Source: Phreatobacter sp. (GTDB lineage: Bacteria; Pseudomonadota; Alphaproteobacteria; Rhizobiales; Phreatobacteraceae). Taken from it: a stretch of DNA of 64,000 nucleotides. The position numbers and the translations under genes are program-made. The notes below the pieces were generated by a model. It ran no database searches, was not told the DNA's origin, and saw nothing but the letters and a program-made list of their open reading frames with translations. Within the stretch, counting starts at the first letter, position 1. Every line of letters starts with the position of its first letter. Below, one piece after another: positions 4,060-26,524 of the stretch. Location of the stretch: assembly GCA_019749835.1 (NCBI GenBank), contig JAIEPJ010000087.1:44327-108326 (forward strand), read 5' to 3'.

Positions 4060-4641
4060 TTAAACGCGCCGCGGCGCCGCCCAGGGCCTTGCTCCGGCAT
4101 CGCGCGCCGTGAACGAGGCGATGGCATCGCCTTCGGCGAGGGTCAGGTCGATGTCGTCCCAGCCGTTCAGCAATTGGGTGCGCCAGACCGGATCGATCGA
4201 GAAGGGCACCACGACATTGCCGCAGGCGATGGTCTGCGCCGCGAGGTCGACGGTGACCGGCAGGTCCGCCGTGTCAAGCAGCCGTTCCGCGTCCTCCTCG
4301 CTCACCATGGCCGGCACCACGCCGTTCTTGACGCAGTTGGAGGCGAAGATGTCGCCGAAGGTCGGCGCGATGACGGCGCGGAAGCCGAAATCCGCCAGCG
4401 CATAAACCGCTGCCTCGCGCGACGAGCCGCAGCCGAAATTGCGCCGCGCCACCAGGATGGTCTGGCCGGCGCGAGGGGCGGGGGCCGTGCCCTCGGCGGC
4501 GAGGTCGTGCAGGAGAAAACGGCCATAGCCCTCCGGTTGGCGCGGCTCCTTCATGAAGCGCGCGGGGATGAGCTGATCGGTGTCCACATTGGCCACCGCC
4601 AGTTTCAGCATCGCGGCCGTATCACGTGTGAACGGCTTCAT
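4060..4641 (-). CDS. leuD: 3-isopropylmalate dehydratase small subunit-like (LeuD family)
   Basis: [18 protein letters not shown]...[42 protein letters not shown]; LeuD motifs. Start ATG at 4641. Confidence 0.92.
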
Positions 4642-6040
4642 GCGAACCGCCTGACATCGGTGAGCGTGCCGGTGACCGCGGCCGCCGCCGCCATGGCCGG
4701 CGACATCAGGTGGGTACGCGCCCCCGGCCCCTGGCGGCCCTTGAAATTGCGGTTGGTGGTCGAGGCGCAGCGTTCGCCCGCGGGAACGATGTCGCCGTTC
4801 ATGCCCACACACATGGAACAGCCCGACTCCACCCAGTCCAGCCCGGCCTCGGTGAAGATGCGGGCGAGGCCCTCCTCCTCGGCCTGGCGCTTGACCAGCG
4901 AGGAGCCCGGCGAGACGAGCCCCGGCACCACCGCTCTGCGGCCGGCAAGGATCTGCGCCGCGGCGCGCAGGTCCTCGATGCGCGCATTGGTGCAGGAGCC
5001 GATGAAGACACGGTCGATGGCAACCGACTGCAGCGCCTGTCCCGGCGTCAGGGCCATGTAGTCGAGCGCATCGCGCGCCGCCGCGGCCTTGATCGGGTCA
5101 GCGATGCGGTCGGGATCGGGCACGTGGGCATCGATCGGCAGGGCCTGTTCCGGGCTGATGCCCCAGGTCACGGTCGGCGCGATAGCGGCCGCGGCGAGGC
5201 TCACCTCGCGGTCGAAGACGGCGTCGGCGTCGCTGACCAGACCGGCCCAGTCCGCCATCGCCTGGTCCCAAGCGCCCCCTCCGGCGCGAAGGGCCGGCCC
5301 TTGAGATAGGCGAAGGTGACGGCATCGGGAGCGACCATCCCGCAGCGCCCGCCAGCCTCGATCGACATGTTGCAGAGGGTCATCCGCCCCTCCATCGACA
5401 GGGCGCGGATGGCCGAGCCCGCATATTCGATGGCATGGCCGGCCGCCCCGTCGGCGCCGATCGCGGCGATGACGGTGAGCATGATGTCCTTGGCGGTGAT
5501 GCCGGGCGCCGTCCGTCCATCGACGCTGATCCGCATCCGTTTCGGCTTCTTCTGCCAGAGCGTCTGGGTTGCCAGGACATGGGCGACCTCGGAGGCGCCG
5601 ATCCCGAAGGCATGGGCGCCGAAGGCCCCGTGGGTGGAGGTGTGGCTGTCGCCGCAGACGACGGTGAGGCCAGGCAGGGTAAGGCCCTGTTCGGTGCCCG
5701 TCACGTGGACGATGCCCTGCCGCCTGTCGTCGAGCCCGAACAGCGTGATGCCATGGGCGGCGGTATTGGAGCCGAGCTGCGCGACCATGCGGGCGATCGA
5801 GGCGTCGGGCACCGGGCCGCCGCGGCCGCGGGTCGGGACATAGTGATCGGCCACCCCGAAGGTGAGGTCCGGCCGGGCCACAGGCACGCCCCGGGCCGCG
5901 ATCTGACCGAAGGCATGATGCGAGCCTTCATGGACGAAATGGCGGTCGATCCACAGCAGCGACAGGCCGTCGGCCCGGCGCGCCACCACGTGGCGATCCC
6001 AGAGCCTGTCGAACAGGGTGGCAGGCAAATCCACTCTCAA
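4638..6040 (-). pseudogene. leuC: 3-isopropylmalate dehydratase large subunit-like (LeuC family), interrupted by an apparent frameshift near 5275-5279
   Basis: N-terminal part in ORF 5201..6040 ([40 protein letters not shown]) and C-terminal part in ORF 4638..5258 ([26 protein letters not shown]). Inserting one G into the coding-strand run GGGGG restores ...[15 protein letters not shown]... in one frame. Confidence 0.85.
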
Positions 6041-6068
6041 CTCCGCGACGACGCTTGACGGACGAACA

Positions 6069-6088
6069 TTGTATCATAGGATAGACAA
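6069..6088. promoter_or_regulatory. Candidate GntR/UTRA operator (TTGTATCATAGGATAGACAA) in the leuC/gntR divergent region
   Basis: TTGT/ACAA half-sites in an AT-rich stretch; overlaps a sigma70-like promoter TTGACG(6055-6060)-N16-TAGGAT(6077-6082). Confidence 0.4.
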
Positions 6089-6216
6089 AGCTGGAAATAT
6101 CTCTATCTCTATCCATCGAACAGGCCGGCAGACAAATGCAAACCGTCGCACTGCCTAGCAAGGGGTCCGCGCCAATGCGCCCCGGTGTGACAACCGGACT
6201 GCGAGGGAGCGAGGCC

Positions 6217-7023
6217 ATGGCTGAAGCCATCGAAACATCCAAGACACGACGGGTCTATCTGACCTTGCGCGACCGAATCTCGTCGGGGGAACTGACGCCG
6301 GGCACCCGCCTGCCGTCCGAGCCGGACCTCGCCGATCTGCACGACGTCTCGCGGGTGACGATTCGTCGGGCGCTGGCGGAACTCGAGCGCGAGGGTCTGA
6401 TCTCGCGACGGCCGGGTGCCGGCACCTTCATCACGGCACGGATGATCAAGCGGCCGATCGTCGCAGACCTGTCGAACGCGCTGGCCCATCTGGTCGAGAT
6501 GGGACGGTCGACCGATGTACGGCTCCTGCAGTTTGGCTATGTCGACGCCAATCCCGATGTCGCCGAGGCGCTGAAGCTCGATGCCGGCGAGCGGGTGCAG
6601 CGATCGGTGCGCGTGCGCATCATCGACGGCGAGCCCTTCTCCTACCTCGTCACCCATGTGCCTCAGCGCATCGGCACGACCTATACCGAGGCGGAGCTGG
6701 GCGTGCAGCCTTTGCTGACCCTTATCGAGCGTTCCGGCGTCAAGGTCGACCGCGCCACCCAGACGATCTCCGCCGCCCTCGCCGGTCCGGATATTGCCGA
6801 AGCGCTCGGCGTCGACATCGGTGCACCGCTGTTGTCGTTGAACCGCGTCGTCTTCGACATGAAGCGGCGCGGCATCGAGCACCTCGCGGCCTTCTACCGG
6901 CCGGACCGCTATTCCTTCCAGATGGATCTGGTCCGGATCGATTCCGGCGGAGACAGGCTGTGGTCCCCGGTTGAGCGTCTGCGCATGGGCATCGGTCTCA
7001 ACGGGGCCGGTGCCAACGACTGA
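6217..7023 (+). CDS. GntR family regulator, HutC/UTRA subfamily
   Basis: wHTH RVYLTLRDRISSGELTPGTRLPSEPDLADLHDVSRVTIRRALAELEREGLISRRPGAGTFIT followed by a UTRA domain. ORF opens at 6136; ATG 6217 preferred (GGGAG upstream). Confidence 0.92.
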   Translation: MAEAIETSKTRRVYLTLRDRISSGELTPGTRLPSEPDLADLHDVSRVTIRRALAELEREGLISRRPGAGTFITARMIKRPIVADLSNALAHLVEMGRSTDVRLLQFGYVDANPDVAEALKLDAGERVQRSVRVRIIDGEPFSYLVTHVPQRIGTTYTEAELGVQPLLTLIERSGVKVDRATQTISAALAGPDIAEALGVDIGAPLLSLNRVVFDMKRRGIEHLAAFYRPDRYSFQMDLVRIDSGGDRLWSPVERLRMGIGLNGAGAND

Positions 7024-7030
7024 TGGGATC

Positions 7031-7084
7031 CCGCCGGCCTCACGGCCGGCGGCTTCGGCAGAACGACAAGAACCGGCCGAAGCC
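7031..7084 (+). promoter_or_regulatory. Two consecutive 9-bp stem-loops between gntR and the binding-protein gene
   Basis: CCGCCGGCC-TCAC-GGCCGGCGG (7031-7052) and GGCTTCGGC-N16-GCCGAAGCC (7051-7084), sharing bases 7051-7052. Confidence 0.55.
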
Positions 7085-7123
7085 GGTCGTCTTTCAGAGT
7101 GTAACAGACGGAGAAGAGCGACC

Positions 7124-8341
7124 ATGACCGCCTGGAATGATACGACGCGACGCAGCCTTCTGAAGACCGGCGCCGCGGGCGCCGCCATCCTGTCGGCCCC
7201 GGGCCTCCTGCGGGCGCAAGCCGCCCCTGTGAAGCTCGGCATCCTTCAACCGGTGACCGGGGCGCTCGCCCAGGATGGCGAATACGGCCGCCTCGGCGCC
7301 CAACTCGCCATCGACGAGATCAACAAGGCCGGCGGCATCAAGTCGCTCGGCGGCGCCATGATCGAAATGGTCTTCGGCGACGCCCGCTCGAGCCCGGAGG
7401 CCGGCTCCCAGGAAGTGGAGAAGATGCATGCCGAGGGCGTCTCCGCCATCGTCGGCGGCTTCGCCTCGCCGATCTGCCTTGCCGCTTCGCAGGCCGCGTC
7501 CCGCTACGACATCGCCTATGCGGTTGATGTCGGCGTCTCCGACCAGATCGTTTCGCGCGGCCTCAAGAACACCTTCCGCTTCGGCCCCGGCTTCGGCGCC
7601 GTGACCCGCGCCGCCATCGACAACCTGGTCAAGCTCAACGACGCCGCAGGCAAGCCGGCCAGGACGGTGGTGCTGGTCCACGAGGACGGCCTGTTTGGCT
7701 CGGGACTCGCCAAGCTGATGAACGACCGCCTCTCCGCGCTCGGATTCCAGATCCTCGAGACCATCCCGCATCCGACGCCGGCCCGCGACATGTCCAATGT
7801 CGCGCTGCGAATCCGGGCGCTCAACCCCGACCTCGTCATCCCGTCGAGCTATTACGGCGAGTTCGTGCTGCTCGCCCGCACGATGCAGCAGCAGCGGATC
7901 CGGCCGAAGGGCATCTATGCGGTCCTCAATGGCGCGGCCTCGAACTTCCGCTTCGTCCGTGAATTCCCTGACGCCGCCAACAACGTCATGGATTGCAACC
8001 ACTGGGCCGATCCGCGCAAGCCGAAGACCGCCGAGCTGCGCCGTCAGGTCGAGGCCACGGGCCGCTTCTGGCTCTACAACGTGCCGCTGAACTATTCCTC
8101 GGTGCGTCTGGTCGCCGATGCCATCGAGCGCTCGGGTTCGCGCGATCGCATCAAGATCATCGAAGCCATGGCGACCTCCACCTTCGCCGACCACATCATG
8201 CCCTATGGTCCGACGAAGTTCGAGAACGGCCAGAACACCGCCGCCGCTCCGGTCAATACCCAGGTGCAGAACGGCGACATCAAGGTGATCTTCCCCGACA
8301 CGTTCGCCGACGCCAAGCCGGTCTTCCCCGTCACCGGCTGA
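7124..8341 (+). CDS. Branched-chain amino-acid-type ABC transporter substrate-binding protein (LivK family)
   Basis: Tat-like signal TTRRSLLKTGAAGAAILSAPGLLRAQA then VKLGILQPVTGALAQDGEYGRLGAQLAIDEINKAGGI. Confidence 0.93.
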   Translation: MTAWNDTTRRSLLKTGAAGAAILSAPGLLRAQAAPVKLGILQPVTGALAQDGEYGRLGAQLAIDEINKAGGIKSLGGAMIEMVFGDARSSPEAGSQEVEKMHAEGVSAIVGGFASPICLAASQAASRYDIAYAVDVGVSDQIVSRGLKNTFRFGPGFGAVTRAAIDNLVKLNDAAGKPARTVVLVHEDGLFGSGLAKLMNDRLSALGFQILETIPHPTPARDMSNVALRIRALNPDLVIPSSYYGEFVLLARTMQQQRIRPKGIYAVLNGAASNFRFVREFPDAANNVMDCNHWADPRKPKTAELRRQVEATGRFWLYNVPLNYSSVRLVADAIERSGSRDRIKIIEAMATSTFADHIMPYGPTKFENGQNTAAAPVNTQVQNGDIKVIFPDTFADAKPVFPVTG

Positions 8342-8363
8342 CGCCACCGCCCCGCTCCCTCCA

Positions 8364-8391
8364 CCCCGCGGCTGGTTCGCCCGCCGCGGGG
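8364..8391 (+). terminator. Intercistronic stem-loop downstream of the livK-like gene
   Basis: CCCCGCGGC-N10-GCCGCGGGG, perfect 9-bp stem, followed by TCTTC rather than a long U-run; probably an attenuator or mRNA stabiliser. Confidence 0.55.
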
Positions 8392-8418
8392 TCTTCATGC
8401 CGGTGAGGTTTTTCTCCC

Positions 8419-9300
8419 GTGTTCAGGTCCTATCCGCCACAGATCGTGCTCGAGGCCGTGCTCAACGGCCTGCTCACCGGCGCCGTCTATGCCCTTGTCG
8501 CGCTCGGCCTGACCCTCGTCTATGGCGTGCTGCACATCATCAATTTCGCCCATGGCGCCATGCTGACGCTGGCCATGTTCGCCGTGCTGGTCGCCCATCT
8601 CGGCTTCGGCATCGATCCCTACCTCGCCATCCTGCCGCTGACCCCGCTGTTCTTCGCCTTCGGCTACGGCCTGCAGCGCTTTGTCATCTCGCCGGCGAGC
8701 CGCAACGACGACGGCGCCATCCTCCTCGTGACACTTGGTCTGTCGATCGTCATCGAGAACCTGCTTCTCGCCATCTTCCGCTCCGACACGCGGTCTCTGA
8801 CCCTCGACTATTCCTTCTCCGTGGTGGATCTCGGCTTCGCGCTCCTGTCGCTGCCGCGCGTCATCGGCTTCGGCGTCGCCCTGGTCGTCGCTGCCGCGCT
8901 CTGGGCCATCCTCGCGCTCACCGATACCGGCAAGGCGATCCGGGCGGTGGCGAAGGAGAAGCTCGGCGCCTCCCTGGTCGGCATTGACGTCAACCACATC
9001 TATGCCGTCACCTTCGGCCTCGGTGCGGCGACGCTGGCGGTGGCCGCCTGCCTGCTCATGCCGTCCTTCTACGTCAATCCGCGCGTCGGCAACGCCTTCG
9101 TCCTCGTCGCCTTCACGGTCGTGGTGCTCGGCGGCATGGGGTCGATCGCCGGCGCCCTGGTCGGCGGCCTGGTCATCGGCGTCGTCGAGAGCCTGTCGGG
9201 CCTCTATCTCGGCGAAAGCCTTGGCCAGATCGGCATCTTCCTCATCTTCATCCTGGTCCTGCTCTTCCGCCCGACCGGCCTGTTCGGGGCGAAGGCATGA
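8419..9300 (+). CDS. Branched-chain amino-acid-type ABC permease (LivH family)
   Basis: LNGLLTGAVYALVALGLTLVYGVLHIINFAHGAMLTLAMF; multiple TM segments. Confidence 0.94.
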   Translation: MFRSYPPQIVLEAVLNGLLTGAVYALVALGLTLVYGVLHIINFAHGAMLTLAMFAVLVAHLGFGIDPYLAILPLTPLFFAFGYGLQRFVISPASRNDDGAILLVTLGLSIVIENLLLAIFRSDTRSLTLDYSFSVVDLGFALLSLPRVIGFGVALVVAAALWAILALTDTGKAIRAVAKEKLGASLVGIDVNHIYAVTFGLGAATLAVAACLLMPSFYVNPRVGNAFVLVAFTVVVLGGMGSIAGALVGGLVIGVVESLSGLYLGESLGQIGIFLIFILVLLFRPTGLFGAKA

Positions 9301-10298
9301 GCTCCGGGACCTTCGCAGCCTATCGCCCGATCCTCATCGCCATCGCAGCCCTTGCAGCCCTGCCGCTGGCCGTGCCCATGCTCGTCGGCGCCGGCCTCTT
9401 CGCCGGTCCCAACACCTTCTACAACCTGATGATCTTCATCCTGATCATCACGCTGGCGGCGCAGGGCTGGAACATTGCCGGCGGCTATGGCGGCCAGTTC
9501 TCCTTCGGTCACGCCGCCTTCTTCGGCACGGGCGCCTATGCCCAGGCGGTGCTGCAGACCCGCTATGGCGTCAATGCCTGGGCGGCGCTGCCGGTGGCCA
9601 TGGCGCTGGGCGGTCTCGTCGGAGCGGTCATCGGCCTGCTCGCCTTCCGCGCCCGCCTGCGCGGTTCCTATTTCGCCCTGGTCACGCTCGCCTTCGCCGA
9701 GGTCTTCCGCATCCTCGCCAATGCCACCCCGATCACCGGCGGCGCCGCCGGCACGCTGGTGCCGCTGCGCATCGGCTTCGGCCAGATGCAGTTCGACGCT
9801 CCCGCCGCCTTCTTCTACCTCGCGCTCGCCTTCGTCGCCGTCGTGCTCATCCTCAACCGGCTGCTCGAGCGCTCGCGCTTCGGCGCCTGGCTCGTGGCCG
9901 TCAGGGAAAACGAGGACGCCGCCCGCGCTCTCGGCGTCGACACGCTCACGGTCAAGCTCAAGGCGATCACGCTGTCGGCCGCCATCACGGCGGTGGCCGG
10001 CGCGCTCTATACCCAGAAGTTCCTCTATGTCGACGCCAACATCGCCTATGGCGCCTGGATCTCGGTGGAGGCACTGCTGGCGCCCATCGTCGGCGGCATC
10101 GGCACGGTCTTCGGCCCGCTCATCGGCGCCATCGCGCTGATCGGCCTCGGCGAGGCGGCAAAGACCGTCATCCACGCCGCTTTCGGCTCCGCCGTTCCAG
10201 GCGTCGACCTCGTCGTCTACGGCTTGCTGCTGATCGTCGTCATCGCTTTCGCACCGCGCGGCCTCATCGGTCTGCTGCGAACCGGGGGAGGGCGCTGA
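9297..10298 (+). CDS. Branched-chain amino-acid-type ABC permease (LivM family)
   Basis: NLMIFILIITLAAQGWNIAGGYGGQFSFGHAAFFGTGAYAQAVL; 4-nt overlap with the upstream gene. Confidence 0.94.
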   Translation: MSSGTFAAYRPILIAIAALAALPLAVPMLVGAGLFAGPNTFYNLMIFILIITLAAQGWNIAGGYGGQFSFGHAAFFGTGAYAQAVLQTRYGVNAWAALPVAMALGGLVGAVIGLLAFRARLRGSYFALVTLAFAEVFRILANATPITGGAAGTLVPLRIGFGQMQFDAPAAFFYLALAFVAVVLILNRLLERSRFGAWLVAVRENEDAARALGVDTLTVKLKAITLSAAITAVAGALYTQKFLYVDANIAYGAWISVEALLAPIVGGIGTVFGPLIGAIALIGLGEAAKTVIHAAFGSAVPGVDLVVYGLLLIVVIAFAPRGLIGLLRTGGGR

Positions 10299-11038
10299 TG
10301 CTGGAGGTTCAGGGCCTCACCAAGCGCTTCGGCGGCCTCGTCGCGGTCAGCGACGTCAGCCTCACCGTGCCCGAGGGATCGATCACCGGGCTCATCGGCC
10401 CCAATGGCGCCGGCAAGACCACGCTCTTCACGCTGGTCTCCGGTTTCCAGACCCCGAGCACCGGGCGCGTGCTCTTCCGCGGCGACGATATCACCGGCCG
10501 GACGCCGGAGAGCCTCGCGGTCCTCGGCATCGCCCGCACCTTCCAGATCGTCCAGCCCTTTGCCGGCCTGTCGGTGCTGGAGAACGTCGCGGTTGGCGCC
10601 TATCTGCGCTGCCCCCACCGGGCCGAGGCCATGGCCCATGCCGAGGCCGTGGCGGGCAGGGTCGGCCTGACCGATCTCGGCCGCCCGGCCTCCTCACTGA
10701 CGGTGGCCGGCCGCAAGCGGCTCGAACTGGCCCGGGCGCTGGCGACCGGGCCCCGCCTCCTGCTGCTCGACGAGGTGCTGGCCGGCCTCAACCCCTCCGA
10801 GATCCGCGACATCATCCCGGTGATTCGGGCGATCCGGGAGACCGGGGTGACGATCCTGATGATCGAACATGTCATGCAGGCGGTGATGAGCCTGTGCGAA
10901 CATGTCCATGTCCTCGCCAACGGCCGCCTCATCGCCGCCGGCACGCCGGCCGAGGTGGTGGGCAATCCGGCGGTCGTCGAGGCCTATCTCGGTCACGGCG
11001 CGGCGGGGCGCCTGCAGAAGGGGGCGGCCCATGGCTGA
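10298..11038 (+). CDS. Branched-chain amino-acid-type ABC ATPase (LivG family)
   Basis: MLEVQGLTKRFGGLVAVSDVSL...[11 protein letters not shown]...LLLLDEVLAGLNPSE. True start is well inside ORF 8984..11038. Confidence 0.94.
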   Translation: MLEVQGLTKRFGGLVAVSDVSLTVPEGSITGLIGPNGAGKTTLFTLVSGFQTPSTGRVLFRGDDITGRTPESLAVLGIARTFQIVQPFAGLSVLENVAVGAYLRCPHRAEAMAHAEAVAGRVGLTDLGRPASSLTVAGRKRLELARALATGPRLLLLDEVLAGLNPSEIRDIIPVIRAIRETGVTILMIEHVMQAVMSLCEHVHVLANGRLIAAGTPAEVVGNPAVVEAYLGHGAAGRLQKGAAHG

Positions 11039-11744
11039 ACCGATCCTGTCGGTCGAAGGCCTCGTCGCCGGCTATGGCGCGACGGAAATCCTGCGCGGCC
11101 TGTCGATGAGCGTCGCCCCCGGCGAGATCGTCGCCGTTCTCGGCTCCAACGGCGTCGGCAAGACGACGCTGAACATGGTCCTGTCGGGGATCCTGCGCGC
11201 CAGCGCCGGCACCGTCCGCTTCCTGGGCGAGGACATCACGCGCGCGAGCCCGGGCGAGATCGTCGCGCGTGGCCTGATCCACGTGCCGGAGGGTCGCAAG
11301 ATCTTCCCCAACATGACCGTGCGCGAGAACCTCGTGCTCGGCTCCTACCGGCGCGGCAAGGCGGCGCGCGCCGGCAATCTCGAGCGGGTGTTCTCCACCT
11401 TTCCCCGTCTGCGCGAGCGCAGCGGCCAGCTGGCAGGAACCCTTTCGGGCGGCGAGCAGCAGATGCTCGCCATCGGCCGCGGCATGATGGCCGAGCCGAA
11501 GCTCCTGATCCTCGACGAGCCCTCGCTCGGCCTCTCGCCGCTGCTGGTGGAGGAGATGTTCACCCTGGTGCGGCAGATCCATGCCGAGGGGCTCGCTGTC
11601 CTGCTTGTCGAGCAGAACGTCGTCCAGTCGCTGGAGGTTGCGGCCCGCGCCTTCATTCTGGAAAACGGCATCTTCGCGCTGTCGGGGACGGCGGCGGACC
11701 TCGCCGCCAGCGACGACCTGCGCCGCGCCTATCTGGGCCTGTAA
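11031..11744 (+). CDS. Branched-chain amino-acid-type ABC ATPase (LivF family)
   Basis: MAEPILSVEGLVAGYGATEILRGLSMSV...GSNGVGKTTLN...LSGGEQQMLAIGRGMMAEPKLLILDEPSLGL. Confidence 0.94.
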   Translation: MAEPILSVEGLVAGYGATEILRGLSMSVAPGEIVAVLGSNGVGKTTLNMVLSGILRASAGTVRFLGEDITRASPGEIVARGLIHVPEGRKIFPNMTVRENLVLGSYRRGKAARAGNLERVFSTFPRLRERSGQLAGTLSGGEQQMLAIGRGMMAEPKLLILDEPSLGLSPLLVEEMFTLVRQIHAEGLAVLLVEQNVVQSLEVAARAFILENGIFALSGTAADLAASDDLRRAYLGL

Positions 11745-11805
11745 CGATGGCCCGACCCTTTCCTTCCAAGCCTTTCATGACCAAGCGCCTTGCCGGAGAC
11801 TGCCG

Positions 11806-12690
11806 ATGACCAGCCCTGCCCAGATCCTGCGCGCCCGGCTCGACCGGCGCCCCGTGCTGGTCGCGCCCGGTGTCGTCGATCCGCTCACCGCCCAGATCGC
11901 CGTCGATGCCGGCTTCGAGGCGCTCTATCTGACCGGCGCCGGCATCGCCTACACCCAGCTCGGCATGCCCGATATCGGCCTCACCACCATGACCGAGGTG
12001 AGCAACGTCATTGCCCGCATCGCCGACAAGGTGAACGTGCCGCTGATCGTCGACGGCGACACCGGCTTCGGCAATGCCATCTCGGTCCAGCGCACCGTGC
12101 GCGTCTTCGAACGGGCCGGGGCGTCGGCCATCCAGATCGAGGACCAGACCTTCCCCAAGCGCTGCGGCCATCTGCGCGGCAAGGACGTGATGCCGACGGA
12201 CGACATGGTCGGCAAGATCAAGGCGGCGGTGGACGCCCGCGCCAATGGCATGCTCGTCATCGGCCGTACCGATGCCGGCGCCGTCGAGGGCTTCGAGCGG
12301 GCCTTCGAACGGGCCGAGCGCTATGCCGAGGCGGGGGCCGACATCATTTTCGTCGAGGCGCCGCGCACCCGCGAGGAGCTCTCTGCTGTCCCGACGCGGC
12401 TCGGCCATATGCGCCCCCTGATGGCCAATATGGTCGAGGGCGGCCGAACGCCGATGACGCCGGTCAGGGACCTGGAGGCCATGGGCTACAGTCTCGTGGT
12501 CTTTTCGGCCGGCGTGGTCCGGGCCATGGCGAAGACCGCCCGCCGGTTCTACGACACGCTCCGCGCCGACGGCACCTCCGATGCGGTGCGCGATGAGATG
12601 TATTCCTTCGACGAGCTCGCCGACATGGTCGGCACCACCGCGCTTCTGGAGGCGGGCAAGCGCTATGACCCGGCCGGGGGCGGGGCATGA
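11806..12690 (+). CDS. PEP mutase/isocitrate lyase superfamily C-C lyase (2-methylisocitrate/dimethylmalate lyase-like)
   Basis: LVAPGVVDPLTAQIAVDAGFEALYLTGAGIAYTQLGMPDIGL...VDGDTGFGNAISVQRTVRVFERAGASAIQIEDQTFPKRCGHLRGKDV. Confidence 0.92.
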   Translation: MTSPAQILRARLDRRPVLVAPGVVDPLTAQIAVDAGFEALYLTGAGIAYTQLGMPDIGLTTMTEVSNVIARIADKVNVPLIVDGDTGFGNAISVQRTVRVFERAGASAIQIEDQTFPKRCGHLRGKDVMPTDDMVGKIKAAVDARANGMLVIGRTDAGAVEGFERAFERAERYAEAGADIIFVEAPRTREELSAVPTRLGHMRPLMANMVEGGRTPMTPVRDLEAMGYSLVVFSAGVVRAMAKTARRFYDTLRADGTSDAVRDEMYSFDELADMVGTTALLEAGKRYDPAGGGA

Positions 12691-14339
12691 CGCTCGATCC
12701 CGTCACGCTCGCGGTCCTCAAGGGGCGGCTGGAGCAGATCGCCGACGAGATGGACGCGACGCTCTACCGCTCCGCCTTCAACCCGATCATCGCCGAGGCG
12801 CGCGACGCCTGCCATGGCCTCTACCACCGCGAGACCGGCGACACGCTGGTCCAGGGCACCAAGGGCCTGCCGATCTTCGTTGGCGCCATGGCCTTTGCGG
12901 TGAAGGCGGTGATCGACAAGGTGAAGGCGCAGGGCGGGCTTTCCCCGGGCGACACCTTCATCTTCAACGACCCCTATGCCGGCGGCACCCATCTCAACGA
13001 TTTCCGGCTTGTACGTCCGGTCTTCCGTGACGGGGCGCTGTTCTGTTGGCTCGCCTCGGCCGGTCACTGGCTGGACATCGGCGGCAACGTGCCCGGCGGC
13101 TACAATCCGGTGGCGACCGAGAGCTTCCAGGAAGGCGTGCTGATCCCGGTGGTGAAGCTCGTTTCGGCCGGCGAAACCCGGCAGGACATCCTGGACATCC
13201 TCACTGCCAATTCCCGCCTGCCGAATTCGAACTGGGGCGACCTCAACGGTCAGCTCAACGCGCTCGATCTCGGCGAGATCAGGCTCAACGCCCTGCTCGA
13301 CCAGTATGGCGCCGCCACGATCGACCAGGCCTTCGTTGCCTTTTCCAGCCGCGCCGAGGCCCTCATGCGAGAGGCTGTGTCGGCCCTTCCCGACGGCACC
13401 TATGCCTTTGAGGACTACCTCGACAATGACGGTATCGTCGACGCGCGGCTGACGGTGGCGCTCGACCTCACCATCGCCGGCGAGACCATGGTGCTCGACT
13501 TCTCCCGCTCCTCGCCACCCTGCGCTGGCCCGATCAACATCTCCGTGCCGACGACGATCGCCGCCTGCTATGTCGCCCTCAAACATGTCTTTACGGACGT
13601 GCCGGCCAATGCGGGCTGCCTCAAGCCCATCACCTTCGTCGTACCGGGCACGACCCTGCTTGGCGCCGGGGCGCCCAAGCCGATGGCCGGCTATACCGAG
13701 ACGATCCTCCGCCTGATCGGCGTCGTCTTCGGCGCCCTGGCGAAGGCGGTGCCCGATCGCGCCACCGCCGGCCCCTTCGGCACGATCAACGCCCTCTCCA
13801 TGGCCGGCCATCGCGCTGACGGCAGCCGCTGGGTGATGTTCAACTTCTTCGGCGGCGGTCTCGGCGGGAATCCCGAGAGCGACGGGCTCAACCACGCCAA
13901 CAACCCGATCTCGACCGCCACCATGCCGCCGGTGGAGATCCTTGAGGCCGCCTATCCCATCCTGTTCACGCAATGGGCGCTGCGGCCCGATTCTGCTGGC
14001 TTGGGCGCCCATCGCGGCGGCCTCGGTGCCATCTACGAGATCGAGGTGCTGGACCCGCGCGGGGCCGACGTCTTCCTGCTCGGCGAGCGCGGCCGCTTCG
14101 CGCCCTTCGGTGTCAATGGCGGCGGGGAGGGGGCTCTCAACCGGTTCACCTGGACCAATGGCGGCCTCACCGGCACCCCGCCCATGGCCTCCAAGGTCAC
14201 CGGGGTGAAGCTCGGCCAGGGCGGCCGTGTCAGGTTGGAGACGCCGGGCGGCGGCGGCTTCGGCGATCCCGCCGGGCGCGATCCGGCGGCGACCGCGCGC
14301 GATCATCGGCTCGGCTATGTGACCGGAGCGAAGGCATGA
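12687..14339 (+). CDS. Hydantoinase B/oxoprolinase family protein (HyuB-like)
   Basis: DPVTLAVLKGRLEQIADEMDATLYRSAFNPIIAEARDACHGLYHRETGDTLVQGTKGLP; C-terminal GGGGFGDPAGRDP. Confidence 0.94.
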   Translation: MTLDPVTLAVLKGRLEQIADEMDATLYRSAFNPIIAEARDACHGLYHRETGDTLVQGTKGLPIFVGAMAFAVKAVIDKVKAQGGLSPGDTFIFNDPYAGGTHLNDFRLVRPVFRDGALFCWLASAGHWLDIGGNVPGGYNPVATESFQEGVLIPVVKLVSAGETRQDILDILTANSRLPNSNWGDLNGQLNALDLGEIRLNALLDQYGAATIDQAFVAFSSRAEALMREAVSALPDGTYAFEDYLDNDGIVDARLTVALDLTIAGETMVLDFSRSSPPCAGPINISVPTTIAACYVALKHVFTDVPANAGCLKPITFVVPGTTLLGAGAPKPMAGYTETILRLIGVVFGALAKAVPDRATAGPFGTINALSMAGHRADGSRWVMFNFFGGGLGGNPESDGLNHANNPISTATMPPVEILEAAYPILFTQWALRPDSAGLGAHRGGLGAIYEIEVLDPRGADVFLLGERGRFAPFGVNGGGEGALNRFTWTNGGLTGTPPMASKVTGVKLGQGGRVRLETPGGGGFGDPAGRDPAATARDHRLGYVTGAKA

Positions 14340-16381
14340 CCACCCTCGTCGGCGTCGATGTCGGTGGCACCTTCACCGATCTGTTCTTCCTGGACGAGGC
14401 GACGGGCACGTTCCGCACCGCCAAGGTCCCGTCCAACCGCGGTGACGAGGCCGTCGGCTTCCTCGAGGGGCTGAAGACCTTCGGCGCATTGTCCGACCTC
14501 GGATCCATCGTCCATGGCACGACGGTGGGCACCAACGCCCTTCTGGAGCGCAAGGGCGCGCGCATTGGCGTCATCACCACGGCCGGCTTCCGGGATGTTC
14601 TCGAAATGCGCCGCCGCGACCGCCGCAACACCTGGGGTCTGTGGGGCGACTTCACCCCCATTGCTGACCGGGACCTGCGCGTCGAGGTCATCGAGCGGAC
14701 GCTCGCCGACGGCACCGTGCGCCAGGCAGTGGACCCGGCGGAGGTCGCCGCCGCGGCGCGGGCCCTGGTCGCCGCGGGCGCGACGGCACTCGCCGTCGTC
14801 TTCGTCAACGCCTATGCCAATCCCGCCAATGAGAGGGCCGCGGCCGCGGCCGCCCGCGCCGTCTGGCCGAACGAGCATGTGTCGGTCTCCTCCGAGATCC
14901 TGCCGGAGATCCGCGAGTTCGAGCGCGCCTCGACCACCGCCCTCAACGCCTATCTTCAGCCCGTTGTCGGCTCCTATCTCGCGAAGCTGGAAGCGGCACT
15001 CGCGGGCGAGGCCTTTGCCGGCGCCTTCCACATCGTCCAGTCCAACGGTGGCGTCATGTCGACGGCGACCGCCCGACGCCTGCCGGTGCGCACCGCTCTG
15101 TCCGGCCCTGCCGCCGGCGTCATCGCCGCGGCGGCCATCGCCACCGCTGCCGGCTATCCCGACATCATCACCGGCGATCTCGGCGGCACATCGTTCGACG
15201 TGTCGCTGATCGCCGGCGGCGAGGCCGCGCTGGCCGCCCAGACCACCATCGATTTCGGCCTCGTCATCCGCTCGCCGATGATCGAGATCACCACGATCGG
15301 GGCAGGGGGCGGTTCCATCGCCCGTGTCGACCGCGGCGGCTTTCTCGAGGTCGGGCCCGAAAGCGCGGGCTCGCGTCCCGGCCCCGTGGCCTATGGCCAG
15401 GGCAACGACCGCCCGACGCTGACCGATGCCAATATCGTCCTAGGACGGATCAATGCCGACCGTCCCATTGGCGGCAAGCTCCAGCGGCTCGACGTCGAGG
15501 CGGCGCGGCGGGCGCTCGCCCGCCATGTCGGCGAACCGCTCGGCCTCACGCCGGAAGAGGCGGCCGAGGCGGTCGTGCGCATCGCCGATGCGCGTATGGC
15601 CGGCGCCATCCGCCTCGTCTCGGTGGAGCGCGGCCACGATCCCGGGACTTTCGCCTTCGTGCCCTTCGGCGGCGGCGGCGCCCTGCATGCCGGCGCGCTG
15701 ATCGCCGATATCGGCCTCAGGGCGGCGCTGGTGCCGCGCTTTCCCGGTGTCACCTCGGCCATGGGCTGCGTCATGGCCGATATCCGCCACGACCAGGTGC
15801 AGACGCTGAACCTCGTCCTCGGTAGCCTCGACGCGGGAGCCCTCGACCGCCGCATGGCGGAGGAAGGCGCCGCTGCCCACGCCGTCGTCGCCGGCGCCGG
15901 ACTCACCGTCGGGCGGATCGACGTCACCTACGAACTGGACATGCACTATCTCGGGCAAACCCATACCGTCGCCGTGCCGCTGCCGGTGACGTTGACCGAG
16001 GGCCGCACCGGCATCACCGCGGCCATTGTCGCTCAGGCCTTCGAGGCGGCCTATTCGCGGGCCTTTTCCCGCCTGCTGCCGGGCCTCGGCATCCGCATCG
16101 TCAACCTGCGCACCACTGCCATTGGCCGCCGTCCGGCCATCGACCTCGCCGCGCTGGCGCCGGACGCCTCCGCCTCTCTGGCCAAGGCGCGAACCGGCAG
16201 CCGCTCCGTCTGGTTTGGCGGCTGGCGCGAGACGGCGGTCTTCTCCCGCCTCGACCTTCCGGTCGAGGCCGTGGTCGAGGGTCCGGCCGTGCTCGAACAG
16301 CCCGATGCCACGATCCTCGTGCCGCCCGGCCAGCGGGCGCGCGTCGACCGCTTCGGCAACCTCGTGCTGGAATGCGCCTGA
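14336..16381 (+). CDS. Hydantoinase A/oxoprolinase family protein (HyuA-like)
   Basis: MTTLVGVDVGGTFTDLFFLDEATGTFRTAKVPS...VHGTTVGTNALLERKGARIGVITTAGFRDVLEMRRRDR. 4-nt overlap with hyuB. Confidence 0.95.
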   Translation: MTTLVGVDVGGTFTDLFFLDEATGTFRTAKVPSNRGDEAVGFLEGLKTFGALSDLGSIVHGTTVGTNALLERKGARIGVITTAGFRDVLEMRRRDRRNTWGLWGDFTPIADRDLRVEVIERTLADGTVRQAVDPAEVAAAARALVAAGATALAVVFVNAYANPANERAAAAAARAVWPNEHVSVSSEILPEIREFERASTTALNAYLQPVVGSYLAKLEAALAGEAFAGAFHIVQSNGGVMSTATARRLPVRTALSGPAAGVIAAAAIATAAGYPDIITGDLGGTSFDVSLIAGGEAALAAQTTIDFGLVIRSPMIEITTIGAGGGSIARVDRGGFLEVGPESAGSRPGPVAYGQGNDRPTLTDANIVLGRINADRPIGGKLQRLDVEAARRALARHVGEPLGLTPEEAAEAVVRIADARMAGAIRLVSVERGHDPGTFAFVPFGGGGALHAGALIADIGLRAALVPRFPGVTSAMGCVMADIRHDQVQTLNLVLGSLDAGALDRRMAEEGAAAHAVVAGAGLTVGRIDVTYELDMHYLGQTHTVAVPLPVTLTEGRTGITAAIVAQAFEAAYSRAFSRLLPGLGIRIVNLRTTAIGRRPAIDLAALAPDASASLAKARTGSRSVWFGGWRETAVFSRLDLPVEAVVEGPAVLEQPDATILVPPGQRARVDRFGNLVLECA

Positions 16382-16977
16382 TGGATATCGCCCGAACCGC
16401 GCTGCTCGTCTGCGACCTGCAGAACGACTTCCTCCACCCCGACGGCGCCTATGGCCGGGCGCGGCAGTCCGCGCCCGAGATCGCCGCGCTCCCCGCGCGC
16501 CTGAAGCCGCTGGCGGATCTGATCCGCGCCAGGGGAGGCTGGATCGTCTCCACCCATTTCACCCTCGTTCCGGGCAAGGGCGGCGAGCCCTTCATCTCCG
16601 ACCACCTGAAGCAACTCCGTCCCTTCCTCGGGAAGGGTGATTTCGTGCCCGGTTCGTGGGGCCACGACACGGTCGACGCCCTGCAGCCCGTCGATATCAA
16701 GGTGGAGAAGGTCGCCTATTCCGCCTTCTACATGTCGCGTCTCGAATGGGTGCTGAAGAAGGCGGGCATCGAGACGCTGCTCGCCTGCGGCATCGTCACC
16801 AATGGTGGAGTCGCCTCGACCGTCCGCGACGCCCATGTCCGCGACTTCCACGTGACCGTCATCGCCGATGGCTGCGCTGCCTTCTCGCCGCAGGTCCATG
16901 ACGAGGCCATTGCCGGGCTGAAGCCGGTGGCGCGGATCGCCATGGTCGCTGACCTGATGGCGGAGATCGGCGGGTGA
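16381..16977 (+). CDS. Isochorismatase-family cysteine hydrolase (amidase-type)
   Basis: TALLVCDLQNDFLHPDGAYG...STHFTLVPGKGG...KVAYSAFYMSRLEWVLKKAGIETLLACGIVTNGGVASTVRDAHVRDFHVTVIADGCAAF. Confidence 0.93.
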   Translation: MDIARTALLVCDLQNDFLHPDGAYGRARQSAPEIAALPARLKPLADLIRARGGWIVSTHFTLVPGKGGEPFISDHLKQLRPFLGKGDFVPGSWGHDTVDALQPVDIKVEKVAYSAFYMSRLEWVLKKAGIETLLACGIVTNGGVASTVRDAHVRDFHVTVIADGCAAFSPQVHDEAIAGLKPVARIAMVADLMAEIGG

Positions 16978-16984
16978 GGACCCC

Positions 16985-18388
16985 ATGTCCCGCATTCTGA
17001 CCGACGATCTCCCCTTCGATCTGACCGTGCCGGTCGCCATCGTCGGCGGCGGGGCGGCCGGGCTCTGCGCGGCGCTGGCCGCCCGGGAGGCTGGCATCGA
17101 TCCGGTGGTCTTCGAACGCGATGCGCTGCCCCAGGGCTCGACGGCCCTCTCGGCGGGCCTCATCCCCGCAGCCGGCACCGCGGCGCAGCGTGCTGCCGGC
17201 ATCGTCGATAGCGTCGAGGCCTTTGCCCGCGACATCCAGGCCAAGGCCCATGGCGCGGCCGACCCGGTCGTGCTGAAGGTGGTGACGGAGGGCGCCGGCC
17301 TGGCCATCGACTGGCTCACCGAGCGCCATGGCCTCGCCTTCACCGTCGTCGCCGACTTTTCCTATCCCGGCCATTCCGCCCGGCGCATGCACGGCCTGGC
17401 CTCGCGCGCCGGGGGCGAGCTCATCGACCGGCTGCGCGCCGCCGCCGAATTCGCCGGTATCGACATCGTCACCGGGGCGCGTGTCGACGCCCTCGTCGCG
17501 ACGCCGGAAGGGCGTGTCCGCGGCCTGGTGGTGGCGCGCCCCGACGGGTCGGAGGAACGCATCGGCTGCGACGCCCTCGTCCTCGCCTGCAACGGTTACG
17601 GCGGCAACAAGGACCTCGTCGCAGAGCACATCCCGGCGCTCAAGGACGCGCTCTATTTCGGCCATCCCGGCAACCAGGGCGACGCGGTGATCTGGGGGCA
17701 GGAACTGGGCGCTGCGCTGCGTCACATGAGCGGGCATCAGGGCCATGGGTCCGTCGCGCATCCCCACGGCATCCTCGTCTCCTGGGCGGTGATCATGGAG
17801 GGCGGGTGCCAGATCAACGCGGCGGGAGAGCGCTTCTGGAACGAGGCTTCCGGCTATTCCGAGGCTGCGCTTGCCGTGCTCGGTCAGCCCGGCGGCATCG
17901 CCTGGGACCTGTTCGACGCCCGCATCGCCGGCATCGCCCGCCAGTTCGAGGACTTCCGCCGGGCCGAGGCGGCGGGCGCCGTTCTTCACGCGGAATCGAT
18001 GGATGAACTGGCGGCGCGCCTCAGCATTCCGCCCCAAGTGATTCGCGCGACTCTCGAATCCATCGCCGATCTCAAGCAGTGTCGAGGCACTGACGGCTTC
18101 GGCCGCGACTGGTCGGGCGTTCCCGACCTCGCGCCGCCCTACTGCGCCGTGAAGGTCACCGGCGCGCTGTTCCACACCCAGGGCGGCCTCGCCGTGGACG
18201 GTGCCGCGCGGGTGCTGCGGAAGGGTGGCACGCCGCTCCCCAATCTTTTCGCGGCAGGGGGCGCCGCGGTGGGGGTGTCGGGACCGGACGCCTCCGGCTA
18301 TCTTTCCGGCAACGGGCTCCTGACGGCCGTGGTGCTGGGACGCATCGCCGGCCGTGAGGCGGCCCATCTCATCAGCGCCGAACCCTGA
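16985..18388 (+). CDS. FAD-dependent oxidoreductase, fumarate reductase/succinate dehydrogenase flavoprotein family
   Basis: VPVAIVGGGAAGLCAALAAREAGIDPVVFERDALPQGSTALSAGLIPAAGT ... LPNLFAAGGAAVGVSGPDASGYLSGNGLL. Confidence 0.9.
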   Translation: MSRILTDDLPFDLTVPVAIVGGGAAGLCAALAAREAGIDPVVFERDALPQGSTALSAGLIPAAGTAAQRAAGIVDSVEAFARDIQAKAHGAADPVVLKVVTEGAGLAIDWLTERHGLAFTVVADFSYPGHSARRMHGLASRAGGELIDRLRAAAEFAGIDIVTGARVDALVATPEGRVRGLVVARPDGSEERIGCDALVLACNGYGGNKDLVAEHIPALKDALYFGHPGNQGDAVIWGQELGAALRHMSGHQGHGSVAHPHGILVSWAVIMEGGCQINAAGERFWNEASGYSEAALAVLGQPGGIAWDLFDARIAGIARQFEDFRRAEAAGAVLHAESMDELAARLSIPPQVIRATLESIADLKQCRGTDGFGRDWSGVPDLAPPYCAVKVTGALFHTQGGLAVDGAARVLRKGGTPLPNLFAAGGAAVGVSGPDASGYLSGNGLLTAVVLGRIAGREAAHLISAEP

Positions 18389-18395
18389 GAGCCCC

Positions 18396-20315
18396 ATGCC
18401 CGTCGACCTCGAGGCCCTGAAGCCGCTCCTCGCCCGTGTCCGCGTCACCCCGCCGGGCAAGACCGCCGACGGCTGGATGGCGGCCGCCTGTCCCGGTGCG
18501 AGCGCCGCCGACAGGCAGGTGATCGCCGCCGCGCTCGCGGCATTGCCTCAGCCCGGCCGGACGCGTGACGCCGCCCGCATTCCGGCGCTGCAGAAGATCC
18601 TGAAGAAGGAAAAGCTCGCGGCCTTCCTCGTGCCGCGTGCCGACGAGCATCAGGGCGAGTATCTCGTGGCCCGCGCCGAGCGGCTGCAATGGCTCACCGG
18701 CTTTTCCGGATCGGCCGGATTCGCCATTATCCTGCAGAAGGAGGCCGCACTCTTCGTCGACGGCCGCTACACGCTCCAGGCACCGGCCGAGACGGATGCC
18801 TCGGTCATTGAATGCCGCCACTTCAAGAAGCCGCCCGCCATCGAGTGGCTGGCCGGCAAGGTCAAGGCGGGTGACCGCGTCGGTTTCGATCCGCGCATCA
18901 CGCCGGTGAAGGAGGCCGAGCGCTGGCGCGAGGCGCTCGGCAAGGCGGGTGCCGCGCTCGTGGCGCTCGACGGCAATCCGATCGACGCGATCTGGACCGG
19001 TCAGCCCGGTGACCCATTCTCCGCCATCCATGCCCAGCCGTTGAAATTTGCCGGCGAGGCGAGTGGCGACAAGCGTTCCCGCATCGGTCAGGAGATTGCC
19101 GCGCGCGGCGCCAGAGCGGCCGTGCTGAACCAGCTCGATTCCATCGCGTGGTTGCTCAATGTGCGCGGTGGCGATACCCCGGCGACGCCGCTGGTCCAGA
19201 GCTTCCTGATCCTCGCCGCTGACGGCCACGCCACCTGGTTCGTCGACCAGGCCAAGTTCACGCCCGGCCTTGCCGCCCATCTCGGCAACGGCGTGACCGT
19301 GCGCCCCCTGGAGGCTTTCGCCGAGGGACTGCAGGAATGGTCCGGAAAGGCCGTGACCATCGAACCGGAGACCGCGACCGCCTGGATCGCCGACCGGCTG
19401 ACGGCGGCGGGCGCCACCCTGATTCATGGCCAGGATCCATCGGTCCTGCCCAAGGCGCGCAAGAACCGGGTGGAACTCGCGGGCACTCGCAAGGCGCATG
19501 CCCGCGACGGCGCGGCGATGGCGCGCTTCCTCCACTGGATCGACCGTGAGGCGGTCGGCCAGGGCGAGCTCGCCGTCATGGCGAAGCTGGAGGAGATTCG
19601 CGGCACCGACGCCCTCCACCGCGGCGCGAGCTTCACCACCATTGCCGGAGCCGGCTCGAATGGCGCCATCGTCCACTATCGGTCCTCGCCGGCGACCGAA
19701 CGGAAGGTCGAAAAGGGCACGTTCCTCCTCATCGATTCCGGCGCGCAATATCTGGACGGGACCACGGACATCACCCGCACCGTCGCCGTGGGCGGCGTGC
19801 CGAAGCGTCTCAGGGAGCACTACACGCTCGTCCTCAAGGGCCATATCGCCGTGGCCACCGCGCGCTTTCCGACGGGAACCGGTGGCATCGCCATCGACGG
19901 TTTCGCCCGCCGCGCGCTCTGGCAGGCTGGCCTCGACTTTGACCATGGCACCGGCCACGGCGTTGGCGTCTATCTCGGCGTGCATGAGGGGCCGGCGCGC
20001 ATCTCGCCCCTGTCGCAGGTCCCACTCGAGCCTGGCATGATCCTGTCCAACGAGCCCGGCTTCTACGAGACCGGCTCCCATGGAATCCGTCTGGAAAACC
20101 TGATCGTTGTCACCGAGAGCGCCAAGCCCGGCTTCCTGGAATTCGAGACGATCACCTTCTGCCCCTTCGACCGCCGCGCGATCGTGGCGGCGCTGCTCAC
20201 CGCGGCCGAGCGGCAATGGCTGGATGCCTATCACGCGCGGACCTGGAGCCTGCTGGAGGGGCGCCTGTCCGGCTCCGACCGCGCCTGGTTGAAACGCATG
20301 ACGGCGCCGCTTTAG
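18396..20315 (+). CDS. M24 family metallopeptidase (Xaa-Pro aminopeptidase-like)
   Basis: FLVPRADEHQGEYLVARAERLQWLTGFSGSAGFAII ... FLLIDSGAQYLDGTTDITRTVAVG ... DHGTGHGVGVYLGVHEGP ... LSNEPGFYETGSHGIRLENL. Confidence 0.94.
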   Translation: MPVDLEALKPLLARVRVTPPGKTADGWMAAACPGASAADRQVIAAALAALPQPGRTRDAARIPALQKILKKEKLAAFLVPRADEHQGEYLVARAERLQWLTGFSGSAGFAIILQKEAALFVDGRYTLQAPAETDASVIECRHFKKPPAIEWLAGKVKAGDRVGFDPRITPVKEAERWREALGKAGAALVALDGNPIDAIWTGQPGDPFSAIHAQPLKFAGEASGDKRSRIGQEIAARGARAAVLNQLDSIAWLLNVRGGDTPATPLVQSFLILAADGHATWFVDQAKFTPGLAAHLGNGVTVRPLEAFAEGLQEWSGKAVTIEPETATAWIADRLTAAGATLIHGQDPSVLPKARKNRVELAGTRKAHARDGAAMARFLHWIDREAVGQGELAVMAKLEEIRGTDALHRGASFTTIAGAGSNGAIVHYRSSPATERKVEKGTFLLIDSGAQYLDGTTDITRTVAVGGVPKRLREHYTLVLKGHIAVATARFPTGTGGIAIDGFARRALWQAGLDFDHGTGHGVGVYLGVHEGPARISPLSQVPLEPGMILSNEPGFYETGSHGIRLENLIVVTESAKPGFLEFETITFCPFDRRAIVAALLTAAERQWLDAYHARTWSLLEGRLSGSDRAWLKRMTAPL

Positions 20316-23523: not shown

Positions 23524-23610
23524 AGACGGCACTCCAGGCGGGTTGGGTATGGGGACTGTCGGCAATGGCAATGGTTCAGGTCAAGGCGGCTGTACCGGGG
23601 GCAGTCCCCC

Positions 23611-24894: not shown

Positions 24895-24932
24895 GGGGTT
24901 TTGCTCCGGGCAGAGGTCGATGAAGGTGAGGG

Positions 24933-26222: not shown

Positions 26223-26359
26223 GGCGGCTCCGGCGGGGAGGGGCGAGCCTAGCCGCGTACGGCCGCCGAGCAACCATCGCCGGTGCAGCCGTGCTGCGCG
26301 CCGGGTGGCGTATCGCGCAGCGGGGCGGAACCGGCGCTGCCTGTCGCCCTGCATCGGAG

Positions 26360-26524
26360 AAGTGCGTCCTTCGAGGCTCGCCACCGACGATGCTCGCGCA
26401 TCGCCGGGCTCGCACCGCAGGATGAGGAGGAAGGTGACCGGCATCAGCCGGAACCTTGGTACAAAGCATTCCCGCCCTCATCCCGAGGTGCGAGCCTGAC
26501 AGGCGAGCCTCGAAGGACGCACTT
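26360..26524. repeat. Nested inverted-repeat (REP/MITE-like) intergenic element
   Basis: Outer perfect 23-bp arms AAGTGCGTCCTTCGAGGCTCGCC (26360-26382) / GGCGAGCCTCGAAGGACGCACTT (26502-26524); inner arms GGCTCGCACC-gca-GGATGAGG (26407-26427) / CCTCATCC-cga-GGTGCGAGCC (26476-26496). Confidence 0.9.

Follow-up and report, generated by a model that had tools for sequence, protein, structure and literature searches.

A 64,000-nucleotide stretch of DNA from Phreatobacter sp. (GenBank assembly GCA_019749835.1, contig JAIEPJ010000087.1, positions 44,327 to 108,326), here called the window, contains a catabolic gene cluster in which a GntR/UTRA regulator gene is flanked on one side by a divergent leuCD-like pair and on the other by an operon on the forward strand. 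The operon encodes a liv-type ATP-binding cassette (ABC) transporter, a lyase of the isocitrate lyase/phosphoenolpyruvate mutase (ICL/PEPM) superfamily, HyuB, HyuA, an isochorismatase-fold protein named Ich in this text, and a flavoprotein (FAD). The genes named in the first-pass annotation of this DNA were all recovered by open reading frame and profile matches, at or near the same positions and in the same families. The cluster is real, widely conserved and uncharacterised, and it brings known enzyme families into an unusual combination; the literature searched gave no description of it, in agreement with the earlier remark that no named pathway has exactly this set. We consider it about an even chance (probability roughly 0.5) that this regulated cluster serves the catabolism of a cyclic imide with a five-membered ring. 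A substituted maleimide is the most likely such compound, and it would pass through an alkylmaleate and an alkylmalate to a 2-oxo acid and, often, glutarate.

To follow the conservation of the gene set, the window proteins were compared with related loci by tblastn. The gene order of the window is shared by 10 congeners, and the set is also carried by Azospirillum, Methylobacterium, Microvirga, Roseomonas, Neorhizobium, Sulfitobacter, Stappia and others. When 59 full-length 20-kb loci were drawn by Ich alone, HyuB and HyuA were present in 58, the lyase and the liv ABC genes in 54 each, a FAD or FAD2 homolog in 41, LeuC or DmdA in 32 and an MmgE/PrpD gene in 31, and these counts are lower bounds because the 10-kb flank cuts some clusters. 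An evenly drawn alphaproteobacterial sample contained Ich in 26 of 385 genomes, and these Ich loci carried HyuBA (24/26), the lyase (19/26), a hydratase (18/26) and FAD (13/26). That these genes stay together in different families and orders of the Alphaproteobacteria is far beyond chance, and the earlier worry that the lyase, Hyu and isochorismatase genes might not stay together across genomes was not borne out, as the set, hydratase included, stands together in many of them. The PrpD gene lies between the second ATPase gene and the lyase gene in 7 of the 10 cluster-bearing congeners examined. It was not found in the window, in the rest of its genome or in the whole genomes of the three nearest cluster-bearing species, and thus PrpD is dispensable. 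A systematic search returned no other recurring neighbour family in more than 10 loci. The M24 peptidase gene, which had been counted as part of the system, occurs at this place only in Phreatobacter-group genomes and was rejected as a pathway member, and the xanthine dehydrogenase (XDH)/CO-dehydrogenase genes next to the cluster of locus L085 were set aside as a true cox cluster and an accidental neighbour. In four Roseomonas-type loci (L123, L147, L148 and L103), HyuBA-Ich or Ich is followed by a molybdenum (Mo)-hydroxylase-like large subunit gene with no lyase or hydratase, and some of these also have an Asp/Glu-racemase/arylmalonate-decarboxylase-like gene. In Sulfitobacter sp. S190, genes for XDH-family subunits, 6-hydroxynicotinate reductase, UPF0280 and an amino acid synthesis family protein lie near the cluster (L174:17691-24179).

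The opening of a cyclic imide ring by this cluster seems well supported by analogy with clusters that carry a different module. A trio named Ich2-PDA1-PDA2 was found in Acidiphilium, Burkholderia, Sphingobium, Neorhizobium and Rhizobium plasmids, where it sits with LeuCD-type genes and FAD homologs and in some also with lyase, transporter and racemase-family genes. The Ich2 of the related plasmid clusters carries the amidase Cys (TSGC), and PDA1 has the PuuE allantoinase/polysaccharide-deacetylase fold, which is the fold of known cyclic imide hydrolases (PMC9304392). The operon at locus L237 keeps PrpD, GntR, liv ABC, DmdAB, lyase and FAD homologs (42-66% identity), and in this one genome Ich2(Cys)-PDA1-PDA2 stands exactly at the place expected for HyuB-HyuA-Ich. 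We take this exchange as the strongest indirect evidence that HyuB-HyuA-Ich would open a cyclic imide, and it gives independent backing to the earlier proposal that such a compound is ring-opened by HyuAB. Mobilizable or conjugative plasmids with the imidase-type module and LeuCD genes were seen in Sphingomonas (pJE1, L251), Sphingobium (pTomTYG65b, L252) and Acidiphilium (L042); HMG-CoA-lyase-like and CoA-transferase genes are also carried, and pJE1 and pTomTYG65b have two LeuCD pairs each. A PuuE allantoinase gene scoring above its cut-off lies directly past FAD in one HyuBA-Ich locus (L258:12035-12946).

The LeuC-like protein of the cluster is a paralog outside the biosynthetic LeuC clade of the genus and is not the sole copy. 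Congeners encode a housekeeping LeuC apart from that of the cluster, and the genome of the window (assembly of 4.43 Mb in 326 contigs, ~85% complete) has a LeuD outside the cluster along with other fragments of the aconitase family. A 53-sequence tree placed the main housekeeping LeuCs in one clade with support of 100/100 and the window LeuC in a cluster clade of 21 rows with support of 94/96; the cluster LeuC group overall was not recovered as a single clade. The possibility that the LeuCD-like pair groups with biosynthetic LeuCD and is the genome's only copy, as allowed for in the first-pass annotation, therefore did not hold. Some relatives have a HacA/DmdAB-type hydratase in place of the LeuCD pair; among the 59 full loci, LeuC was found in 25 and the DmdA type in 7, never both, and PrpD and a DmdA-type hydratase never occurred together. 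That the hydratase subfamily changes and yet stays in place argues that the hydration step is integral to the pathway. The specificity loop of LeuD, read at the residue past the YL/FM motif as a test for a carboxylate side chain, was mostly K or S in cluster LeuD and DmdB types and was judged not decisive. The leuC-like gene of the window lacks one base near 5270 as compared with three congeners, and the gene is an intact open frame in congeners, mostly of 478 to 498 codons.

Residues and family tests separated the enzymes whose roles fit from those whose roles had to be revised. The lyase keeps the KRCGH catalytic motif and the DxD metal site on alignment to 3eoo and 1o5q. It is PrpB-like but falls under the PrpB equivalog cut-off of NCBIfam (291.7 versus 354.4 bits), and it departs from PrpB near the NITEFG stretch, which is NMVEGG here. 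HyuA and HyuB carry the hydantoinase A and B domains of Pfam, and neither reaches the cut-off of 1000 bits for the caprolactamase CapAB equivalogs (484 and 281 bits, respectively). Ich has a confident predicted structure (AlphaFold2, predicted local distance difference test score 91.8), and the Foldseek matches of this model were 3kl2, TrtA, BiuH, RutB, NicF and EntB. Its D12 and K110 are invariant among 33 orthologs; Gly143, however, aligns with Cys162 of TrtA, and the TNGG stretch is likewise invariant, down to 54% identity. A canonical cysteine amidase of the NicF/RutB/TrtA type, as had been supposed for this protein, is contradicted at the sequence level by this Gly at the place of the nucleophilic Cys of the G..T..CV motif. 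In alignment with fumarate and urocanate reductases, the flavoprotein has Tyr291 and Tyr439 at the places of the two substrate/catalytic Arg residues; Tyr291 is nearly invariant and Tyr439 invariant among 17 flavoprotein homologs. The absence of both Arg argues against a fumarate-like dicarboxylate substrate, and the earlier idea that the flavoprotein adjusts the C=C of a dicarboxylate is doubtful.

The product of cleavage was approached through neighbouring acyl-CoA dehydrogenase and CaiB genes, whose identity as glutarate enzymes was predicted before their profile match. The acyl-CoA dehydrogenases of Tistrella and Burkholderia matched glutaryl-CoA dehydrogenase (GcdH) with E = 1.5e-185 and 1.8e-220, and the CaiB proteins of both had succinate-glutarate CoA-transferase (SUGCT) as the best match by >200 bits, though below the cut-off. 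GcdH lies directly past FAD in L084 and adjoins DmdA in L240 and L241, SUGCT lies between LeuC and Ich in L273, and the GcdH of the Tistrella operon is a second, dedicated copy. In all, GcdH and/or SUGCT was found in or beside the cluster in five lineages. A rough post-hoc estimate puts the adjacent cases expected by chance among ~130 loci at 0.08. At the genome level, GcdH accompanied Ich in 23/26 genomes versus 194/359 (Fisher p = 3e-4), a co-occurrence that genome size confounds and to which we give little weight; GcdH is present in 12/12 Phreatobacter genomes including the one without the cluster. The glutarate genes in or beside the cluster thus point to glutarate as a cleavage product.

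From the gene content, synteny, paralogy, residue changes, module exchange and glutarate-gene links we infer the substrate and every reaction step as follows. The liv-type ABC transporter would import the maleimide or its succinimide form, HyuA and HyuB would open the imide ring with ATP, and the Cys-less Ich would complete the conversion to a substituted maleate with release of ammonia. The flavoprotein would presumably put the C=C in place at the stage of the carbonyl ring or of an early intermediate. Hydration of the alkylmaleate to an alkylmalate would fall to the LeuCD-type (or HacA/DmdAB-type) hydratase, helped by PrpD in the clusters that have it. Cleavage of the alkylmalate by the ICL-fold lyase would give pyruvate or glyoxylate as the 2-oxo acid, together with a carboxylic acid that would be glutarate in lineages with GcdH or glutarate CoA-transferase in the cluster. 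The imide-to-alkylmalate scheme of the first-pass annotation is supported in part, for its cyclic imide, its hydratase and its conserved gene set, whereas the roles that it gave to the amidase and the flavoprotein need revision and M24 falls outside the system; the glutarate link, PrpD as a member, the leuC frameshift and an Ich without nucleophilic Cys are points beyond it.

Hydration by LeuCD/aconitase-type enzymes followed by ICL-fold cleavage requires a vicinal unsaturated 1,4-diacid, which means a five-membered imide, that is a maleimide, and glutarate as product requires a carboxyethyl side chain. Both features occur in the natural compound hematinic acid, which is therefore the best-fitting candidate. 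We propose only tentatively that the cluster is dedicated to this compound and its alkylmaleimide relatives, with which the oxidation of chlorophyll and heme ends. Hematinic acid, which bears a methyl and a carboxyethyl group on the maleimide ring and arises when chlorophyll and heme are oxidised, has been reported in leaves and sediments (PMC7318184). Its imide opening would give 2-methyl-3-(2-carboxyethyl)maleate, then methylhomoisocitrate and finally pyruvate and glutarate. Dialkylmaleamates hydrolyse readily through the neighbouring carboxylate, so the Cys of Ich would be unneeded and the Cys-less enzyme would exploit this self-hydrolysis. Old-Yellow-Enzyme genes in L037 and L041, relatives of the bilirubin and N-ethylmaleimide reductases, might have spoken for a tetrapyrrole-derived imide but were left unused, as they occurred in none of 80 loci taken from genome contigs.

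Several observations weigh against the imide pathway. An Ich with Asp-Lys-Gly has no proven amide-hydrolysing mechanism, and HyuAB could act on a lactam or hydantoin. Loci L103, L142 and L148 keep HyuBA-Ich without lyase or hydratase, L123 keeps Ich without detectable HyuA, and a Mo-hydroxylase-like gene adjoins Ich in some Roseomonas-type loci. GcdH and SUGCT were found in 0/59 of the full loci drawn by Ich, so there may be several products, glutarate among them. Unless the LeuC frameshift is a sequencing error, the pathway may also be non-functional in this strain.

A pyridine/nicotinate-type pathway, which we regard as unlikely, would have HyuAB open a reduced oxo-pyridine lactam such as 1,4,5,6-tetrahydro-6-oxonicotinate (THON) to an enamine that the Asp-Lys-Gly Ich hydrolyses, leading later to glutarate. 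Enamine hydrolysis needs no Cys, isochorismatase itself hydrolyses a vinyl ether, and the Asp-Lys-Gly set resembles isochorismatase-type enzymes. The 6-hydroxynicotinate reductase/XDH cluster just downstream in Sulfitobacter S190 and the XDH-family (Mo-hydroxylase-like) genes that adjoin Ich in Roseomonas-type loci, and lie ~10 kb off in Paraburkholderia, also count for it, as does the nicotinate catabolism of Azorhizobium, which runs via THON to glutarate (PMC3511419). However, a regulator and other genes separate the S190 nicotinate cluster from the locus, the other loci showed no such cluster, the LeuCD and the lyase would be left without use, and the exchange of HyuBA-Ich for an imidase-fold enzyme with a Cys-amidase fits an imide better than an enamide. 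In a hydantoin-type route, HyuAB would hydrolyse a 5-substituted hydantoin and Ich would take off the carbamoyl group, much as creatinine is degraded by way of N-methylhydantoin. The family membership of HyuAB and the Ich fold, shared with biuret and triuret hydrolases and related amidases, agree with such a route, but Ich does not have the Cys of those amidases, an amino-acid product leaves LeuCD and lyase without a role, and Asp/Glu-racemase-family genes were found in only 6/59 loci; we consider it improbable.

The hydratase and the lyase could be explained by a methylcitrate-like branch, in which PrpD, LeuCD and the PrpB-like lyase would process a (homo)citrate-type tricarboxylate and HyuAB/Ich would be a separate nitrogen function. 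The PrpB-like nature of the lyase and the PrpD in 31/59 loci favour this branch, which is nonetheless very improbable: no citrate synthase (PrpC) was found among the annotated cluster genes, with no genome-wide search for PrpC made, four cluster-bearing Phreatobacter species, the window's among them, have no PrpD anywhere in their genomes, and the lyase stays with the ring-opening module even after module exchange. The same enzyme logic of imide opening, aconitase-type hydration and ICL-type cleavage, known from isonicotinate degradation, would also lead from aconitimide or a citrazinate-like imide through cis-aconitate and isocitrate to glyoxylate and succinate. A housekeeping aconitase would suffice for that route, however, and the glutarate genes imply a chain one carbon longer, which leaves it little likelihood.

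All junctions of the operon are tight (Table 1). The first-pass annotation had described ATGA-type overlaps at six sites; 4-base ATGA overlaps were found at three junctions only (9297, 12687 and 14336), the sites at 10298 and 16381 being 1-base TGATG overlaps and that at 11031 an 8-base overlap, and the remaining junctions have gaps of 7 to 100 bases. The imperfect palindrome TTGTATCATAGGATAGACAA is the best conserved part of the leuC-GntR intergenic region among 11 Phreatobacter-group sequences and occurs once in the window against a chance expectation of none; it is a candidate operator of the GntR/UTRA regulator. On the minus strand at 22222-26444 of the window, an Amidase gene and two M20 (ArgE/DapE-like) peptidase genes were seen, which are kept in congeners.

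Table 1. Features of the cluster and its borders, with positions in the window.
Feature	Position	Strand	Evidence
LeuD-like small subunit, cluster hydratase	4060..4635	-	NCBIfam PRK01641, 188 bits; orthologs adjoin cluster LeuC in congeners and other families
LeuC-like large subunit, cluster hydratase	4638..6040	-	Two frames (5201-6040 and 4638-5258), one-base frameshift near 5270
Conserved imperfect palindrome TTGTATCATAGGATAGACAA, candidate GntR/UTRA operator	6069..6088	+	Between divergent leuCD and GntR genes
GntR/UTRA regulator, HutC-subfamily-like	6217..7023	+	Pfam UTRA 110 bits, GntR 77 bits; orthologs at same place
liv-type ABC substrate-binding protein	7124..8341	+	Pfam Peripla_BP_6, 156 bits
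Two liv-type ABC permeases	8419-9300, 9297-10298	+	Orthologs annotated as branched-chain amino acid ABC permeases
Two liv-type ABC ATPases	10298-11038, 11031-11744	+	Orthologs annotated as ABC transporter ATP-binding protein
ICL/PEPM-superfamily C-C lyase	11806..12690	+	NCBIfam prpB 291.7 bits (cut-off 354.4); PDB methylisocitrate lyases and petal death protein
HyuB (hydantoinase B/oxoprolinase)	12687..14339	+	Pfam Hydantoinase_B, 562 bits
HyuA (ATP-dependent hydantoinase A/oxoprolinase family)	14336..16381	+	Pfam Hydant_A_N, Hydantoinase_A, Hydant_A_C
Isochorismatase-fold hydrolase Ich, Asp-Lys-Gly (TNGGVAST) instead of Asp-Lys-Cys	16381..16977	+	Pfam Isochorismatase, 133 bits
FAD flavoprotein, fumarate-reductase/FAD_binding_2 family	16985..18388	+	Family match; both fumarate Arg positions are Tyr (Y291, Y439)
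M24 Xaa-Pro aminopeptidase	18396-20315	+	Starts 7 bases past flavoprotein

The cyclic imide pathway proposed here shares parts with known systems. Imidases of the PuuE/polysaccharide-deacetylase fold with half-amidases are known, for example the P. putida imidase and A. nidulans HxnM/HxnN (PMC9304392). The logic from imide through half-amide to diacid is alike, and the imidase fold replaces HyuBA-Ich in the L237 operon, whereas the present cluster would use ATP-dependent HyuAB and a Cys-less Ich, followed by a dedicated hydratase and C-C lyase. The late steps of nicotinate fermentation in Eubacterium barkeri use DmdAB and 2,3-dimethylmalate lyase, and a LeuCD/HacA-type hydratase with an ICL/PEPM-fold alkylmalate lyase is common to both, some clusters having the DmdA/HacA type itself. 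The cluster hosts, however, are aerobic, with a HyuAB module and glutarate-linked genes; 2-methyleneglutarate mutase, methylitaconate isomerase and hydroxymethylglutarate dehydratase were not found among the annotated cluster genes, whole genomes not being searched for them. The second half of the methylcitrate cycle (PrpD, AcnD/AcnB, PrpB) has the same sequence of dehydratase, hydratase and ICL-fold lyase, and the lyase is nearest to PrpB, but the cluster has no annotated PrpC, a dispensable PrpD, a LeuCD-type hydratase in place of AcnD, a lyase below the PrpB cut-off and a link to glutarate rather than succinate. The N-methylhydantoin (creatinine) route pairs a HyuAB-type N-methylhydantoinase with N-carbamoylsarcosine amidase; HyuAB adjoining an isochorismatase-fold hydrolase is alike, and the cluster differs by Gly for the catalytic Cys and by its hydratase and lyase.

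The cluster is present in hundreds of genomes of soil and marine bacteria, where it is usually annotated piecemeal as leucine-biosynthesis, hydantoinase and cysteine-hydrolase genes and could now be named as one pathway. It offers a testable case of two unrelated ring-opening modules swapped in one operon, and further cases of an isochorismatase-fold enzyme in which Gly invariably replaces Cys and of misannotated LeuCD paralogs. On the bacterial recycling of the last chlorophyll and heme fragments, the literature search gave only chemistry and physiology papers among the matches listed. Should hematinic acid or a maleimide akin to it be the substrate, the cluster would show such recycling by bacteria, and the hematinic acid reading, if true, would supply the missing microbial end step of global tetrapyrrole turnover.

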